Below, in pieces: positions 5,926 through 28,510 of a stretch of 31,471 nucleotides of DNA. Position 1 is the stretch's first letter; every line of letters starts with the position of its first letter. The stretch comes from a virus: the IMG/VR virus record IMGVR_UViG_3300025098_000181, positions 1 through 31,471 of that record; one strand, 5' to 3'. The position numbers were made by a program, and so were the translations under genes. The notes under the pieces are model-generated. The model was not told the DNA's origin, searched no databases, and saw only the letters and a program-made list of their open reading frames with translations.

Positions 5926-6118
5926 CGTAGGCAAGGCGCTGAAAAAAGCGCAGGCGCTCGCTGGCGTCAGCAATGACGAACTAGCAGCAGAATTTGGCGT
6001 AACGCCTGTCCAAGTATGTCGCTGGAGGCACAAAGATGACATGAAGTTCAGTCGTGTAGTGCAGTTAGCCAACAGACTCAACTTGTCGCTGGATGAGTTT
6101 GAGAAGTTAGGGAGGTAA
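5909..6118 (+). CDS. Small HTH regulator, Cro/XRE-like
   Basis: A 69-residue protein consisting almost entirely of one helix-turn-helix domain: helices around GKALKKAQALAG, NDELAAEFG, TPVQVCRWRHK (recognition helix), RVVQLANRLN and LDEFEKL. Two ATGs (5906, 5909) are possible; AAGGAG ends 7 bases before 5909. It overlaps the upstream SSB-like gene. It probably acts as a dimer on phage promoters, with the dyads at 4579-4594 and 6331-6386 as candidate targets. No dimerisation or cleavage domain is present, which suggests a Cro-like rather than a CI-like role. Confidence 0.75.
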   Translation: MICPSDVGKALKKAQALAGVSNDELAAEFGVTPVQVCRWRHKDDMKFSRVVQLANRLNLSLDEFEKLGR

Positions 6119-6121
6119 GTC

Positions 6122-6250
6122 ATGATGCCTTATCCGTTTGACTGTCCTGTCTGCGATGCGCGTTATTGGCAAGAAGACAGCGTTGTCTATGATGAGAGGT
6201 ATGATGACAGCGTTTGCTTTCGTTGTGCAGAAGAGCCAAAAGAGGAGTAA
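6122..6250 (+). CDS. 42-residue zinc-ribbon protein
   Basis: A 42-residue ORF starting at the first of two adjacent ATGs. GGAGG lies 6-7 bases upstream and the start is 4 bases after the HTH gene stop. It carries two Cys knuckles, CPVC at residues 8-11 and CFRC at 32-35, joined by an acidic Tyr-rich linker, so it most likely folds round one zinc ion. Such tiny zinc ribbons in phages are often nucleic-acid or polymerase-binding proteins. The stop codon abuts the A-run and hairpin of the leftward terminator at 6249-6278. Confidence 0.7.
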   Translation: MMPYPFDCPVCDARYWQEDSVVYDERYDDSVCFRCAEEPKEE

Positions 6251-6278
6251 AAAAAAGCCCCGTCGAGGAAACGGGGCT
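6249..6278 (-). terminator. Intrinsic terminator, leftward
   Basis: 8-bp perfect stem AGCCCCGT (6256-6263) / ACGGGGCT (6271-6278), 7-base loop. On the minus strand it is followed by a run of 8 T (complement of A at 6249-6256). There is no T-run on the plus strand, so it works leftward. Confidence 0.75.
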
Positions 6279-6334
6279 AGACCACTTGCGGAAGGGTTTA
6301 CGCTTGTGGCATCCTTAGTTTGCGTACATAGGAT
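6249..6334 (-). ncRNA. Predicted leftward small RNA with three stem-loops (OOP-like position)
   Basis: Read on the minus strand, a promoter (TATACA, N16, TATAAT) predicts a start at about 6334 and a perfect intrinsic terminator ends at about 6249. The 86-nt product folds simply. Stem 1 is AUCCU/AGGAU, starting at the first base (6334-6311). Stem 2 is CCAC-AA-GCG / CGC-AA-GUGG (6309-6282) with a symmetric internal loop. Stem 3 is AGCCCCGU/ACGGGGCU followed by a U-run (6278-6249). Neighbours are separated by 1 and 3 bases. It is antisense to the early operon transcript just after the HTH and zinc-ribbon genes. Expression is not shown. Confidence 0.55.
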
Positions 6335-6386
6335 GAGGAAAATTATACAGCAATCTAGCTGTCTGTATACTCATAACTCCTCATCC
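6331..6386. promoter_or_regulatory. Nested dyad with overlapping opposed promoters
   Basis: An outer 9-bp perfect inverted repeat, GGATGAGGA (6331-6339) and TCCTCATCC (6378-6386), surrounds an inner 7-bp repeat, TATACAG (6344-6350) and CTGTATA (6363-6369). The inner arms double as promoter hexamers: leftward -35 TATACA (complement of 6364-6369) with -10 TATAAT (complement of 6342-6347); rightward -35 TATACA (6344-6349) with -10 TATACT (6366-6371). Both spacers are 16 bases. A dimeric repressor here could control both directions. Confidence 0.5.
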
Positions 6387-6471
6387 CACCTCAGTACGCC
6401 TAGTTGAGCCTAGTTAAATAGTGCTGTCGCAGGTGCAGCTGCTCACGAAAGCCGATTCATTCCTACGACCT

Positions 6472-6607
6472 TTAGAGGCGGGGACGAACAGTGGTTATGT
6501 TGCCAAGTAGTAAGGGCGCGGTTTGGCAGAGCCGTAAATTTTCTGCACTGATACTGTATGAATGATGGACTAGCTAGATACTTGTATAGGGCAACAACCG
6601 CCTCTAA
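6472..6607 (+). ncRNA. Structured 5' leader candidate (cis-regulatory RNA)
   Basis: A perfect 10-bp stem, TTAGAGGCGG (6472-6481) with CCGCCTCTAA (6598-6607), closes a 116-base element. Directly inside on the 3' side, one base away, GGCAACA (6590-6596) pairs with TGTTGCC (6498-6504). TGCCAA (6501-6506) can instead pair with TTGGCA (6533-6538), so two folds compete. The element ends about 30 bases before the ATG at 6640. It resembles a riboswitch-type or protein-binding leader, but I recognise no known class. Confidence 0.45.
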
Positions 6608-6639
6608 TGACCCCTATTGTCTAAAAAAAGGAGAAGGGT

Positions 6640-7044
6640 ATGAACGCAGTAAAGTCAGCAGATGATTACAAAATGCGCTGGAAGTGCATGGACAAAGGTT
6701 GCTACCTCGACAAGGTAGAGCCAAGGCTTTGGGACTTTCAGCACTGCTTTCCTAGGAATATGAGCATGGGCGACATAGACGGCATTGTCGAAATCAAAGG
6801 TAACTTCTTAGTCGTCGAGTGGAAAAGTGTCGGCGGTAAGCTAACGACAGGTCAGCACATCTTGCTTAAAAACCTAACCGCCATGAGTAGCAATATCATC
6901 GCCTATGTCTTGTATGGCAACTCACAGACAATGGACGTGTACGAAATGCGCCGTTACTTCTGTGGTCAGTGGGAGGACACGCCTACTAATCGCGACCAGG
7001 TGGAGCACCTTTTTAAGTGCTGGTCACGGATGGCGTCGCTATGA
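6640..7044 (+). CDS. PD-(D/E)XK nuclease-like protein (VRR-NUC-like)
   Basis: A 134-residue protein with the nuclease-like row GDIDG (44-48), EWK (60-62) and GQ (71-72). These match the D, ExK and Q motifs of PD-(D/E)XK enzymes of the VRR-NUC/Holliday-junction-nuclease type. The N-terminus contains several cysteines (C16, C21, C36). It starts at ATG 6640 behind AAGGAGAAGGG and opens the DNA-metabolism row. A role in resolving recombination or replication intermediates is likely from the fold and its neighbours. Substrate unknown. Confidence 0.65.
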   Translation: MNAVKSADDYKMRWKCMDKGCYLDKVEPRLWDFQHCFPRNMSMGDIDGIVEIKGNFLVVEWKSVGGKLTTGQHILLKNLTAMSSNIIAYVLYGNSQTMDVYEMRRYFCGQWEDTPTNRDQVEHLFKCWSRMASL

Positions 7045-24814: not shown

Positions 24815-27800
24815 ATGGCTATTGCGGCAGTTGCAGGATTAGCGTCTATAGGTTCAGCGATGATTGCCGCAGGGACGTTTGCAATTGGTTGGGCAGCCGC
24901 TGCGGGTGCTTTTGCTTTAGGTGCTGGCTTGTCGATGGTTTCGCGTGCGCTAGCACCAAAGCCCAACATTGGCGCACAGATGCGGGGTATCACACAGACG
25001 ACCCGCGAGCCTGCAAGCAGTCGCAAAACTATTTACGGCAGAATGCGCGTCGGTGGTCAGGTCGTTTTTATTTCACACTCAGGCGATGACAATAAATATT
25101 TACATATGGCTGTCGCGTTTGCCTCCCACGAAATAGAGTCGTTCGATGAAATTTGGTTTAACGACAAGAAAATATGGACGACCGTCGGCTTTCAAAGTGA
25201 CTGGGGCACCTATGTCACTATAGACCGCAAGTTTGGCACAGCAGGGCAAGCAGCCTCAACGCAGCTTACTAACGCCAACGTTTTATGGACTTCTGACCAC
25301 AAGCTCTCAGGCATTGCATATATAGCGTTTAAGCTTGAATGGAATCAAGACAAGTTCCCGCAAGGCGTACCAAACATCACAGCGGTAATTAAGGGCAAAA
25401 AGGTCTATGACCCTAGGACATCAACAACTGCTTACAGTCAAAACCCTGCGCTTTGTCTACGTGATTACATGCTCGACCAAAGCTATGGCCTTGGCGAAGT
25501 AGCGGCAAACATAAACGACACGTCAGTCGGTAATGCCGCTGACCTATGTGAAGAGCAAGTCACTTTAGACGCTGGCGGCACGCAAGACAGATATCAGTGT
25601 AATGGCGTCATTGATACAGCCAATCAAATCAAGGCCAATATCGAGCAACTGCTAGCCTCTATGGGTGGGCGACTAACCTACTCAGGTGGCGAGTATTTCG
25701 TCGATGGCGCAGAGTACAAGACGCCAACGCTCACGTTTACAGAAGCCGATATTGTCAGCGATATACAGACGCAGACTAAGCAGTCGCGCAGAGGCATATA
25801 CAACGGCGTTAAGGGCATCTTCGTATCCGAGGAAAAGAACTTTAAGGTTCTTGATTACCCTGCGCAAATTAGCTCAACGTATGAGTTAGAAGATGGCGAC
25901 CCTATCTACTTAGACATGCCGCTACCTTGTGTGACCAATAACCAGCAGGCACAGCGCCTAGCTAAGATTGCTTTGCTGAAGTCACGCCAACAAGTCGTGA
26001 TGACAATGACGACGAACCTTAAAGGCTTAAGGGTAAAGGTTGGGGACACAATACGAGTCACAAACGACCGTCTTAATTACAGCTCCAAAGTGTTTGAGGT
26101 TATCGACTACTCTCTTGCCATTACTGATGGTGCGCTAGGTGTAAATCTAAGTTGCATCGAAATAGCATCAGCCATATACGACTGGAACACATCTGACGAG
26201 CAAGATTTTTTAGCAGGCGGTGAGCTTGATTTATACGACGGCAGAACAGTCGAAAATGTCACAAACTTAACTGCTACAGAAATTGCAGCAGTTGGGCCTG
26301 ACGGCACATTAACGACAAATGTAGAGCTTACCTGGACTGCGCCTGACGACGCCTTTATTGATTTTTATAAAGTCAGATGGAATGAAAACGGCACGACCGA
26401 CTACTTCCACGCCGAAACCAAAGAAACGCGCATTTTGATTGCTGGGCTTGATGTCACATCTAATTATGATTTCCGCGTACAGGTGCAAAACCTGCTTGGA
26501 GTGACAAGCACGGGCGTATCGCTTGACGATGAAGTTTTGGAGGGAGACACGACAGCACCTGCTGTGCCTACTATTATAGGGACAGAGGGTGGCATTCAAA
26601 CGATTACGCTGACATGGCAAAACCCAAACGACGTTGATTTCAAGCACGTTGAGGTTTTTGTTAACAGCACTAACTCTTTGCCAGCAAACCCTACCTCAAT
26701 AGTTGATGGTGAAACATACACAATCAGCGGTTTGATAGGCGAACAAACACGGTATTTCTGGCTTAAGTCTGTAGATTTCTCGAGTAATAAATCAGCCGCA
26801 ACGACTGCGGTTTCTGGCGTTTCTGTAAAAGTAACTGCTGGTGATATAGAAGACGGGGCGATTGATATTGCCTCATTCGCTTCAGATATCTCGCCTGTAC
26901 AAGTCGTTTCGTCATTACCTGTGTCAGCATCAGAGGGCGACATTGCGTATCTGACGACAGACAACAATCTTTACCGTTACGATGGCACAGCATGGACGCG
27001 AGCAGTTGCACTTGGCGATGTAACTGGAGCAGGAAATTTAGCCGCACTAAATACTGTCGGGTCGTCTCAGATTGATAATGATGCAATTACCAACGCACAA
27101 ATAGCTGTGGATGCTATCCAGGGTGATGTCATTGCCGCTGGTGCCATTACTTCCACAATGATTGGTGCGGATGCAGTGACCACTGCCGCAATAGCCAATG
27201 ATGCAATTACGAGTGACCTAATCGCGGCTGGAGCTATAACATCAACAGAGATTGGTGCGGACGCAGTAACTACTGCCGCAATAGCTAATGACGCAATAAC
27301 CACAGATTTAATTGCCGCAGGTGCTATAACATCAACAGAAATTGGTGCGGATGCAGTAACCACTTCGGCAATAGCCGCAAACGCTATCACAGCAACAGAA
27401 ATAGCGGCTGGTGCTGTTACTGCTAATGAGATAGCGGCAAATACTATTACTGCTGGGCAAATTGCCGCTGGGGCTGTCACGGCAACCGAAATAGCGGCCA
27501 ATACAATTACATCATCACAAATTGCAGCTAATACAGTTACAGCAAGTGAGATAGCGGCTGGTGCTGTCACTGCAAACGAAATAGCCGCAAATACTATTAC
27601 AGCAGGTGAAATTGCCGCTGGTGCCGTTAGCGCAACTGAAATTGCGGCTAATACAATTACATCATCACAAATTGCGGCAAACGCAATCACAGCTAGTGAA
27701 ATAGCCGCAGGTGCTATTACTGCCACAGAGATAGCGGCAGGCACGATTACATCCTCGGAGTTGGCGGCGGATTCAGTGACAGCTAACGCTATCGCGGCGG

Positions 27801-28510
27801 GTTCCGTAGCGGCTGATGAAATAGCGGCTGGGGCAGTTACTACCGCTAAACTCGACGCTGGTGCAGTTACTGCAAACGAGATTGCCGCGAATACAATCAC
27901 GGCGGGTCAAATAGCCGCTGGTGCAATCAGTGCAACAGAAATATCTGTCAGTGAGTTGGCTGCGATATCGTCAGTGCTTGGTACATTGACCGCTGGAACA
28001 ATCGACGCTGACGTTGTTGATATTACAAACCTAAGTGTAGGCACTGCTGACATAGAAGACTTGGCTGTTACAGGCGCTAAGATTGGCTCGCTTGCGGTAG
28101 ACACCCTAAAAATAGCAGATAACGCGGTAACAATACCCGAGTCGGCTGTTGGCACAACACATAGCTCAATTGGTAGCGTTAGTTCACCTACTGTATTGCT
28201 TACGAAAACGATTACCTATGACTCTGGTGCGGCACCCGAGGCAATCATGGTCAGTGGTTTTGCAGTGGTTAAATCAGACCAGTCGCAAGTGGGTTATATA
28301 AAGGTTGTTTTAGAGGTGGCTGGAGTTGACGTATTTACAAGTGCCGACACAAACACAACTACCACAACTGAGACAAAAGCCTTTGTTCATAGGGTTACTG
28401 GACTGACTGGAACCTCAGTAACAATCAAACTAAAAGTTTATAGAACAGGCAGCAGTAGTAACGCTAATGTCTACCAAAGTGGCATCCTCATATTAGGGGC
28501 AAAGAAATGA
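24815..28510 (+). CDS. Tail-tip host-specificity protein (lambda J/GTA g15-like) with decapeptide repeats
   Basis: A 1231-residue protein. An Ala/Gly-rich hydrophobic N-terminus (~1-45) begins the J-like core (to ~475). Two fibronectin-III-like domains follow at ~480-685 (NVTNLTATEIA...VELTWTAPDD; PAVPTIIGTEGG...ITLTWQNPND). A long repeat region spans ~752-1048, and a C-terminal domain (~1050-1231) contains TADIEDLAVTGAKIG and a compact beta domain. It caps the tail tip and contacts the host. The start ATG lies 4 bases after the GNAT stop, weakly spaced. The repeats suggest a fibrous shaft. Confidence 0.82.
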   Translation: MAIAAVAGLASIGSAMIAAGTFAIGWAAAAGAFALGAGLSMVSRALAPKPNIGAQMRGITQTTREPASSRKTIYGRMRVGGQVVFISHSGDDNKYLHMAVAFASHEIESFDEIWFNDKKIWTTVGFQSDWGTYVTIDRKFGTAGQAASTQLTNANVLWTSDHKLSGIAYIAFKLEWNQDKFPQGVPNITAVIKGKKVYDPRTSTTAYSQNPALCLRDYMLDQSYGLGEVAANINDTSVGNAADLCEEQVTLDAGGTQDRYQCNGVIDTANQIKANIEQLLASMGGRLTYSGGEYFVDGAEYKTPTLTFTEADIVSDIQTQTKQSRRGIYNGVKGIFVSEEKNFKVLDYPAQISSTYELEDGDPIYLDMPLPCVTNNQQAQRLAKIALLKSRQQVVMTMTTNLKGLRVKVGDTIRVTNDRLNYSSKVFEVIDYSLAITDGALGVNLSCIEIASAIYDWNTSDEQDFLAGGELDLYDGRTVENVTNLTATEIAAVGPDGTLTTNVELTWTAPDDAFIDFYKVRWNENGTTDYFHAETKETRILIAGLDVTSNYDFRVQVQNLLGVTSTGVSLDDEVLEGDTTAPAVPTIIGTEGGIQTITLTWQNPNDVDFKHVEVFVNSTNSLPANPTSIVDGETYTISGLIGEQTRYFWLKSVDFSSNKSAATTAVSGVSVKVTAGDIEDGAIDIASFASDISPVQVVSSLPVSASEGDIAYLTTDNNLYRYDGTAWTRAVALGDVTGAGNLAALNTVGSSQIDNDAITNAQIAVDAIQGDVIAAGAITSTMIGADAVTTAAIANDAITSDLIAAGAITSTEIGADAVTTAAIANDAITTDLIAAGAITSTEIGADAVTTSAIAANAITATEIAAGAVTANEIAANTITAGQIAAGAVTATEIAANTITSSQIAANTVTASEIAAGAVTANEIAANTITAGEIAAGAVSATEIAANTITSSQIAANAITASEIAAGAITATEIAAGTITSSELAADSVTANAIAAGSVAADEIAAGAVTTAKLDAGAVTANEIAANTITAGQIAAGAISATEISVSELAAISSVLGTLTAGTIDADVVDITNLSVGTADIEDLAVTGAKIGSLAVDTLKIADNAVTIPESAVGTTHSSIGSVSSPTVLLTKTITYDSGAAPEAIMVSGFAVVKSDQSQVGYIKVVLEVAGVDVFTSADTNTTTTTETKAFVHRVTGLTGTSVTIKLKVYRTGSSSNANVYQSGILILGAKK
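27070..27960 (+). repeat. Array of ~30-bp repeats encoding about 29 decapeptides
   Basis: The tail-tip protein repeats a ten-residue unit such as E-IAANTIT-A and Q-IAAGAVT-A about 29 times, with the first part also forming a 30-residue (90-bp) higher-order repeat containing IGADAVTTAAIANDAIT. The DNA copies differ mostly at synonymous positions, so the unit is maintained at protein level and is not a recent slippage product. A regular 10-residue period with Ile/Ala faces suggests a beta-helix or other stacked fold. Confidence 0.85.

Follow-up and report, generated by a model that had tools for sequence, protein, structure and literature searches.

A conserved three-hairpin small RNA in a family of uncultured aquatic phages that probably tunes phage genes through base pairing

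Introduction

The early region of the phage genome analysed here raises the question of whether a leftward element with three stem-loops, lying antisense to the early operon, is a genuine RNA gene and, if so, what such an RNA would act on. The window, i.e., the whole stretch of DNA that was analysed, comes from IMG/VR, measures 31,471 bases and has a GC content of 48%. The original prediction, made from the letters of this one genome, likened the element to lambda OOP or ColE1 RNAI and left room for control of the operon as well as for action in trans. To our knowledge, most of the phage small RNAs described so far come from lambdoid phages, cyanophages and the prophages of pathogens, and we know of hardly any with family-wide covariation. 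The small RNA described here is present in most examined members of a wide aquatic phage group and carries a clear, constant putative seed.

Results

The coordinates of the leftward RNA were confirmed to within a base, at 6335-6249 on the minus strand of the window (Table 1). Folding of this segment agrees with the predicted order of three packed stem-loops starting at the presumed first base (6335-6310, 6309-6282 and 6278-6256), followed by the U-tail of the 8-T terminator; the 87-nt RNA has a minimum free energy of -30.5 kcal/mol (z -4.5), and none of 200 shuffled sequences was equally stable. The T-run of the terminator exists on the minus strand only. The anticipated minus-strand promoter with 16-base spacing is also present, and its -10 hexamer is TATAAT or TACAAT in class A relatives, whereas the remaining relatives have TATAAT or TATACT. 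As expected for an RNA that encodes no protein, comparison of the window with its relatives revealed no conserved ORF inside the small RNA; a plus-strand ORF (6138-6407) spans it in the window, and a spanning ORF is missing from most relatives. The symmetric AA/AA internal loop remarked upon in the middle stem does occur in the window but is not conserved as such: only the 3′ AA is widely kept, the 5′ side being AA, AU, GA, UU or GUA among relatives. Motif counts came to 8 terminator-like sites versus 4.5 expected and 9 promoter-like sites versus 4.3 expected, sufficiently near expectation that the small RNA would not stand out from motifs alone; what sets it above chance is that it is conserved, and covaries, over 60 related phages.

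Table 1. Features of the small RNA locus and its surroundings (window coordinates unless a contig is named)
Feature	Position	Strand	Remarks
Leftward small RNA	6249-6335	-	~87-94 nt, start uncertain within 6342-6335; three hairpins
Hairpin 1	6310-6335	-	4 of 4 modelled pairs covary over the family
Hairpin 2	6282-6309	-	Stems covary; loop and 3′ arm CCCUU(CC/GG)RCAAGUG constant
15-mer CCCUUCCGCAAGUGG	6282-6296	-	Invariant in 33 of 33 rows; proposed pairing seed plus 3′ arm
Intrinsic terminator, 8-T tail	6249-6278	-	Stem swapped wholesale among relatives, pairing kept
Leftward promoter TATACA-16-TATAAT	6342-6369	-	TATACA 6369-6364, 16-nt spacer, TATAAT 6347-6342; 10 of 12 matches
Dyad TATACAG-N12-CTGTATA	6344-6369		Overlies promoter; likely operator (predicted)
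Inverted repeat, left arm GGATGAGGA	6331-6339	+	Flanks promoter
Inverted repeat, right arm TCCTCATCC	6378-6386	+	Rightward leader start resembles small RNA start
Type A leader RNA	6390-6639	+	~245 nt, non-coding; apparent core pseudoknot between 6467 and 6610
Type B leader, examples	L051:1610-1829, L018:5294-5513, L024:2556-2775, others	+	GTCAGAGATTACTGGGCGTTAGGCC...GATTCGATACAGTAATC
Shine-Dalgarno GGAGAAGGGT of downstream gene	6630-6639	+	GAAGGGT (6633-6639) complementary to hairpin-2 loop
First gene after leader	6640-7044	+	Weak VRR-NUC match; different genes here in other phages
Neighbour 5085			Protein related to phage proteins of unknown function
Neighbour 5665			Single-strand DNA-binding protein
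Neighbour 5906			Weak Cro/CI-type HTH
Neighbour 6122			42-aa CxxC..CxxC protein
Neighbour 7412			NinB

The first relatives came from protein and pattern searches of viral contigs and yielded 33 distinct RNA sequences, in the alignment of which CCCUUCCGCAAGUGG is wholly invariant. A covariance model built from these sequences (R1) matched the same syntenic place, antisense, in diverged phages that had been retrieved only through the 5085 gene, with E values from 1e-25 to 1e-2. In the resulting alignment of 60 phages, which is fitted to the model and whose cells are not independent, 97.3% of the pair cells are standard, whereas sliding the partners as a control lowers pairing to 25-50%. Compensatory base changes in related phages, on which the original prediction had staked the RNA, are present: 15 of the 19 pairs show double changes, a level that none of 500 shuffles reaches. 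Sequence change in all three hairpins is visible by eye, as in hairpin 2, where CCAC/GTGG with GCG/CGC becomes TCAC/GTGA with GTC/GAC in L143. With the outermost pair of hairpin 2 excluded, departures read in the minus orientation comprise 8 G-U cells versus 1 A-C cell, an excess that selection on the minus-strand RNA would be expected to produce. The terminator stem-loop, in turn, has been exchanged wholesale between phages, and the hairpin of L014 is the exact reverse complement of that of L015.

The best R1 score in bacterial control genomes (~25 Mb) was 23.2 bits, so that matches above ~24 bits at the right place can be considered safe; those in L024, L025, L042 and L053, at 18-21 bits, were accepted on synteny. 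There is one copy per genome in 14 of the 16 longer contigs (28-32 kb). R1 found nothing in 375 sampled genomes of two bacterial classes (190 and 185), a result that is weak evidence because the filters were stricter and a positive control was lacking. An exact 16-mer, ACCACTTGCGGAAGGG, turned up in L089, L090, L094, L104, L110, L119, L120, L122 and L132, none of which has the cassette, and these occurrences were put down to chance or coding sequence. No Rfam 15 family reached its gathering score in the window, the best sub-threshold match scoring 21.8 bits against a gathering score of 49.5; RF02837 (anti-hemB), RF02278 and RF00519 resemble the small RNA in overall size and in having a terminator hairpin, but all of them score far under the gathering level. 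Sequence and conservation together thus support a leftward, non-coding, intrinsically terminated small RNA, as predicted, which is almost certainly a real conserved RNA gene of a phage family and belongs to a previously uncatalogued small RNA family with no Rfam 15 entry.

The carriers are aquatic, uncultured dsDNA phages of one family, and their genomes measure ~28-32 kb. The terminase encoded in the window is 50-53% identical to those of pelagiphages HTVC111P, 202P, 026P and 112P and of Phage DSL-LC06, and an R1 search of these closest cultured phages by terminase, as well as of HTVC028P/106P, returned nothing. A big tail-region protein of the window (24815-28507, plus strand) contains a long run of near-identical repeats (AIANDAITSDLIAAGAITSTEIGADAVTT). 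Immediately upstream of the small RNA, the stop codon TAA occupies 6248-6250, such that the RNA, which ends at 6249, overlaps the ORF by 2 nt, and in most relatives the upstream stop codon falls within a few bases of the small RNA 3′ end. The upstream gene itself varies, encoding an HTH protein, a zinc ribbon, a 78-82-aa MKIEKG protein, a PAPS-reductase-like protein or others (unmatched proteins were named by eye). Given that this gene is not constant, the neighbours, including the HTH and zinc-ribbon genes named in the original prediction, are incidental and there is no fixed antisense gene.

The two models invoked for the locus fit only in part and fail on the points specific to each. ColE1 RNAI is an RNA of ~100 nt with a three-hairpin shape that is antisense to the primer transcript. 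The phage RNA shares the three stem-loops, but the likeness is in shape only: it lies outside the rightward leader, points away from it and is not antisense to a primer RNA. The only candidate rightward promoter, a mirror image of the leftward one, lies beyond its 5′ end, so that the two transcripts diverge and only a read-through transcript could overlap. Lambda OOP and the phage RNA are both small leftward phage RNAs with their own promoter and an intrinsic terminator (here conserved, and predicted from the sequence); both run antisense to the strand of the early operon, and in many relatives the phage RNA, too, is located after a small DNA-binding regulator gene. However, OOP shares 52 bases with the 3′ end of cII (PMC5869508), whereas here the overlap is confined to the stop codon in phage after phage (2 nt in the window), next to a variable upstream gene, and no O-like replication gene was recognised downstream of the small RNA. 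The OOP-like slot and mechanism are therefore not borne out.

On the other side of the promoter lies a leader RNA. In its type A form, identity between phages reaches 90-97%, compared with mostly 70-87% for the HTH gene of the same phages, and the genes 3′ of it differ between phages. The minimum free energy of the whole plus-strand leader is no better than that of shuffles (z +1.1); support for its structure came not from energy but from comparison between phages. The covarying stems are P1 (GAGGNC/GNCCUC) and P2, in which GUUGCC/GGCAAC changes to GGUGAC/GUCACC in the divergent copies L143, L027, L046, L148 and L152; a third stem, CAGUG/CACUG changing to CAGCG/CGCUG and read by eye, crosses P2 and would form a pseudoknot. 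In many other small-RNA phages, type A is replaced at the same position by the type B leader, with an 8-bp closing stem P1, five pairs of which covary, and several further supported helices. Neither type matched an Rfam family, and type B and L148-type leaders found no match in cultured phages. A sub-threshold similarity of the plus-strand leader to Rfam Bacilli-1 (E 0.21) was rejected, as it reflects short common words only; likewise, ten matches of the leader pattern in bacterial genomes (L157-L166) all lack the remaining leader and are chance. The leader, predicted to be structured and occurring in two forms, is even more conserved than the small RNA. The small RNA itself is the landmark of a short non-coding cassette whose conservation exceeds that of the surrounding protein genes. 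It is conceivable, although doubtful, that the small RNA and the leader make up a single control module of two RNAs that is passed between phages as a whole, with the small RNA as the dedicated partner and the leaders, pseudoknotted in type A, and type B as novel classes of structured RNA (a riboswitch, a ribozyme or an antitermination RNA being the candidates). If the adjoining leaders are functional RNA classes, the module would exemplify early gene control by RNA in a large group of uncultured phages.

Across clades, hairpin 2 keeps its loop and 3′ arm constant while the stems change, which suggests that the RNA has a partner in trans recognised by sequence. Of 50 start sites in the window, that of the gene behind the leader gives the longest loop match (7 nt, equalled by none of the other 49), and shuffled loops of the same composition reach 7 nt with P ~0.01; the pairing is nevertheless short, and a purine-rich sequence is usual for any Shine-Dalgarno site. 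Divergent loops also match their own sites: CCCUUCUC in L147 matches the Shine-Dalgarno sequence GAGAAGGG, and AUUCCCUU in L144 matches AAGGGAAU, each over 8 nt (P 0.006). In the group of L013, L014, L015, L043, L047 and L131, a loop base U goes with the Shine-Dalgarno sequence GAAGGGA; such agreement follows clades and hence is partly inherited. Over 55 loci, 180 of 812 other start sites match equally well or better, with a few of the downstream genes mis-called. There is no GGG at the Shine-Dalgarno site and no match to the loop in L035, L036, L055 and L145; the loops of L018, L041 and L076 lack CCCUU, and the match in type B phages extends over 6 nt only (P 0.07-0.11). The U-tail could also pair over 8 nt with an A-run just 5′ of the Shine-Dalgarno sequence, which may be chance.

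Discussion

Among the functions entertained in the original prediction, action in trans appears to fit best, given the constant loop and 3′ arm of hairpin 2 and its varying stems. We propose that the small RNA probably tunes phage genes through base pairing: the exposed C-rich loop (CCCUU and its neighbours) would cover the purine-rich Shine-Dalgarno sequence at the leader end, and perhaps AAGGG sites in a small number of further phage or host mRNAs, and would lower translation of the next operon, whereas a regulator bound at the promoter dyad would set the timing of small RNA synthesis. We put the probability that Shine-Dalgarno pairing with the next operon is the main action at about 0.4, held there by the non-matching loci, the loops devoid of CCCUU and the 6-nt matches of type B.

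Cis-antisense processing is a serious, if unlikely, alternative. Under this scenario, the downstream operon would be transcribed mainly by read-through from the early operon, and the leftward RNA would pair over its full length with that mRNA between two genes, resulting in RNase III cleavage or a read-through block, an OOP-like outcome that requires no fixed target gene. Indeed, the small RNA is fully complementary to any read-through transcript, and between 6250 and 6640 no rightward terminator was found except for a weak one at 6518-6535. In the window, the rightward mirror-image promoter has the -10 TATACT, and in most relatives the poorer TATACC or TACACC, so that rightward transcripts may often originate in the upstream operon and read through, and the inverted repeat around the promoter would give a long hairpin in such an mRNA (6335-6395, z -2.7). 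However, a cis-antisense RNA needs no constant sequence of the kind maintained in hairpin 2 across clades, and three stable, covarying minus-strand hairpins would slow the formation of a full-length duplex.

The constant loop and arm amid changing stems could also serve a main target outside the operon, either a host mRNA or a host RNA-binding protein recognising CCCUU...CAAGUG, and phages with a non-matching loop or Shine-Dalgarno sequence still retain the small RNA. There is precedent for such a design among bacterial small RNAs: alpha-r14 (NfeR1) of alphaproteobacteria consists of three hairpins with a constant C-rich anti-Shine-Dalgarno loop sequence and differing stems (PMC10746234). The phage RNA likewise has three hairpins, but the combination of a constant C-rich loop with divergent stems holds for hairpin 2 only, where CCCUU...CAAGUG is fixed, even though type B phages carry CCCUU in loop 1 too; CCUCCUCCC, which lies in the unpaired part of each of the three alpha-r14 hairpins, is absent from the small RNA alignments, and the RNA is phage-borne and 87-94 nt long, compared with 123 nt for alpha-r14. 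An outside target would also fail to account for the neighbouring operon giving the best match within the phage, and we regard it as rather improbable.

Far less probable is that the 390-bp non-coding cassette acts as DNA, namely, as a replication origin or a recombination or regulatory site, with the hairpins and terminator as by-products. The long palindromic arrangement and the persistence of the cassette while the flanking genes on both sides change would suit such an element, but compensatory changes in every hairpin, the strand-specific T-run and the minus-strand G-U excess argue for RNA, and no iterons were found within 6100-6700. The least probable reading, a plain leftward terminator or insulator that shields the upstream genes from opposing transcription, with the RNA itself playing no role, would account for a terminator abutting the upstream stop codon in most relatives but not for hairpins 1 and 2, which would then need neither conservation nor covariation.

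The promoter region has symmetries of its own. The arms of the putative operator dyad vary symmetrically among relatives, being TGTACAG/CTGTACA in some and ATACACACAAT/ATTGTGTAT in L143. Around it, the sequence with which the small RNA begins returns in inverted form where the rightward leader starts, with CCTCATCC and GTACGC on both sides in the window and CCTATCC and GAGTGC on both sides in L009. Divergent transcripts from this inverted repeat (6331-6386) would share similar starts, and the arms change together between phages, with alignment scores higher within phages (17.4) than between them (14.8; permutation sd 0.37), a difference to which kinship contributes. The likeness of the arms possibly reflects the binding of a protein to a symmetric site or a hairpin formed by the mRNA on read-through, neither of which is a firm explanation. 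Pairing of the small RNA with the leader via the common 5′ motif GTACGC was rejected because both hold the same strand of the motif. Finally, CTAG, a rare word in many bacteria, repeats between 6350 and 6590; the promoter dyad contains it, and so does the leader (GCCTAGTYGAGCCTAGT, GACTAGCTAG).
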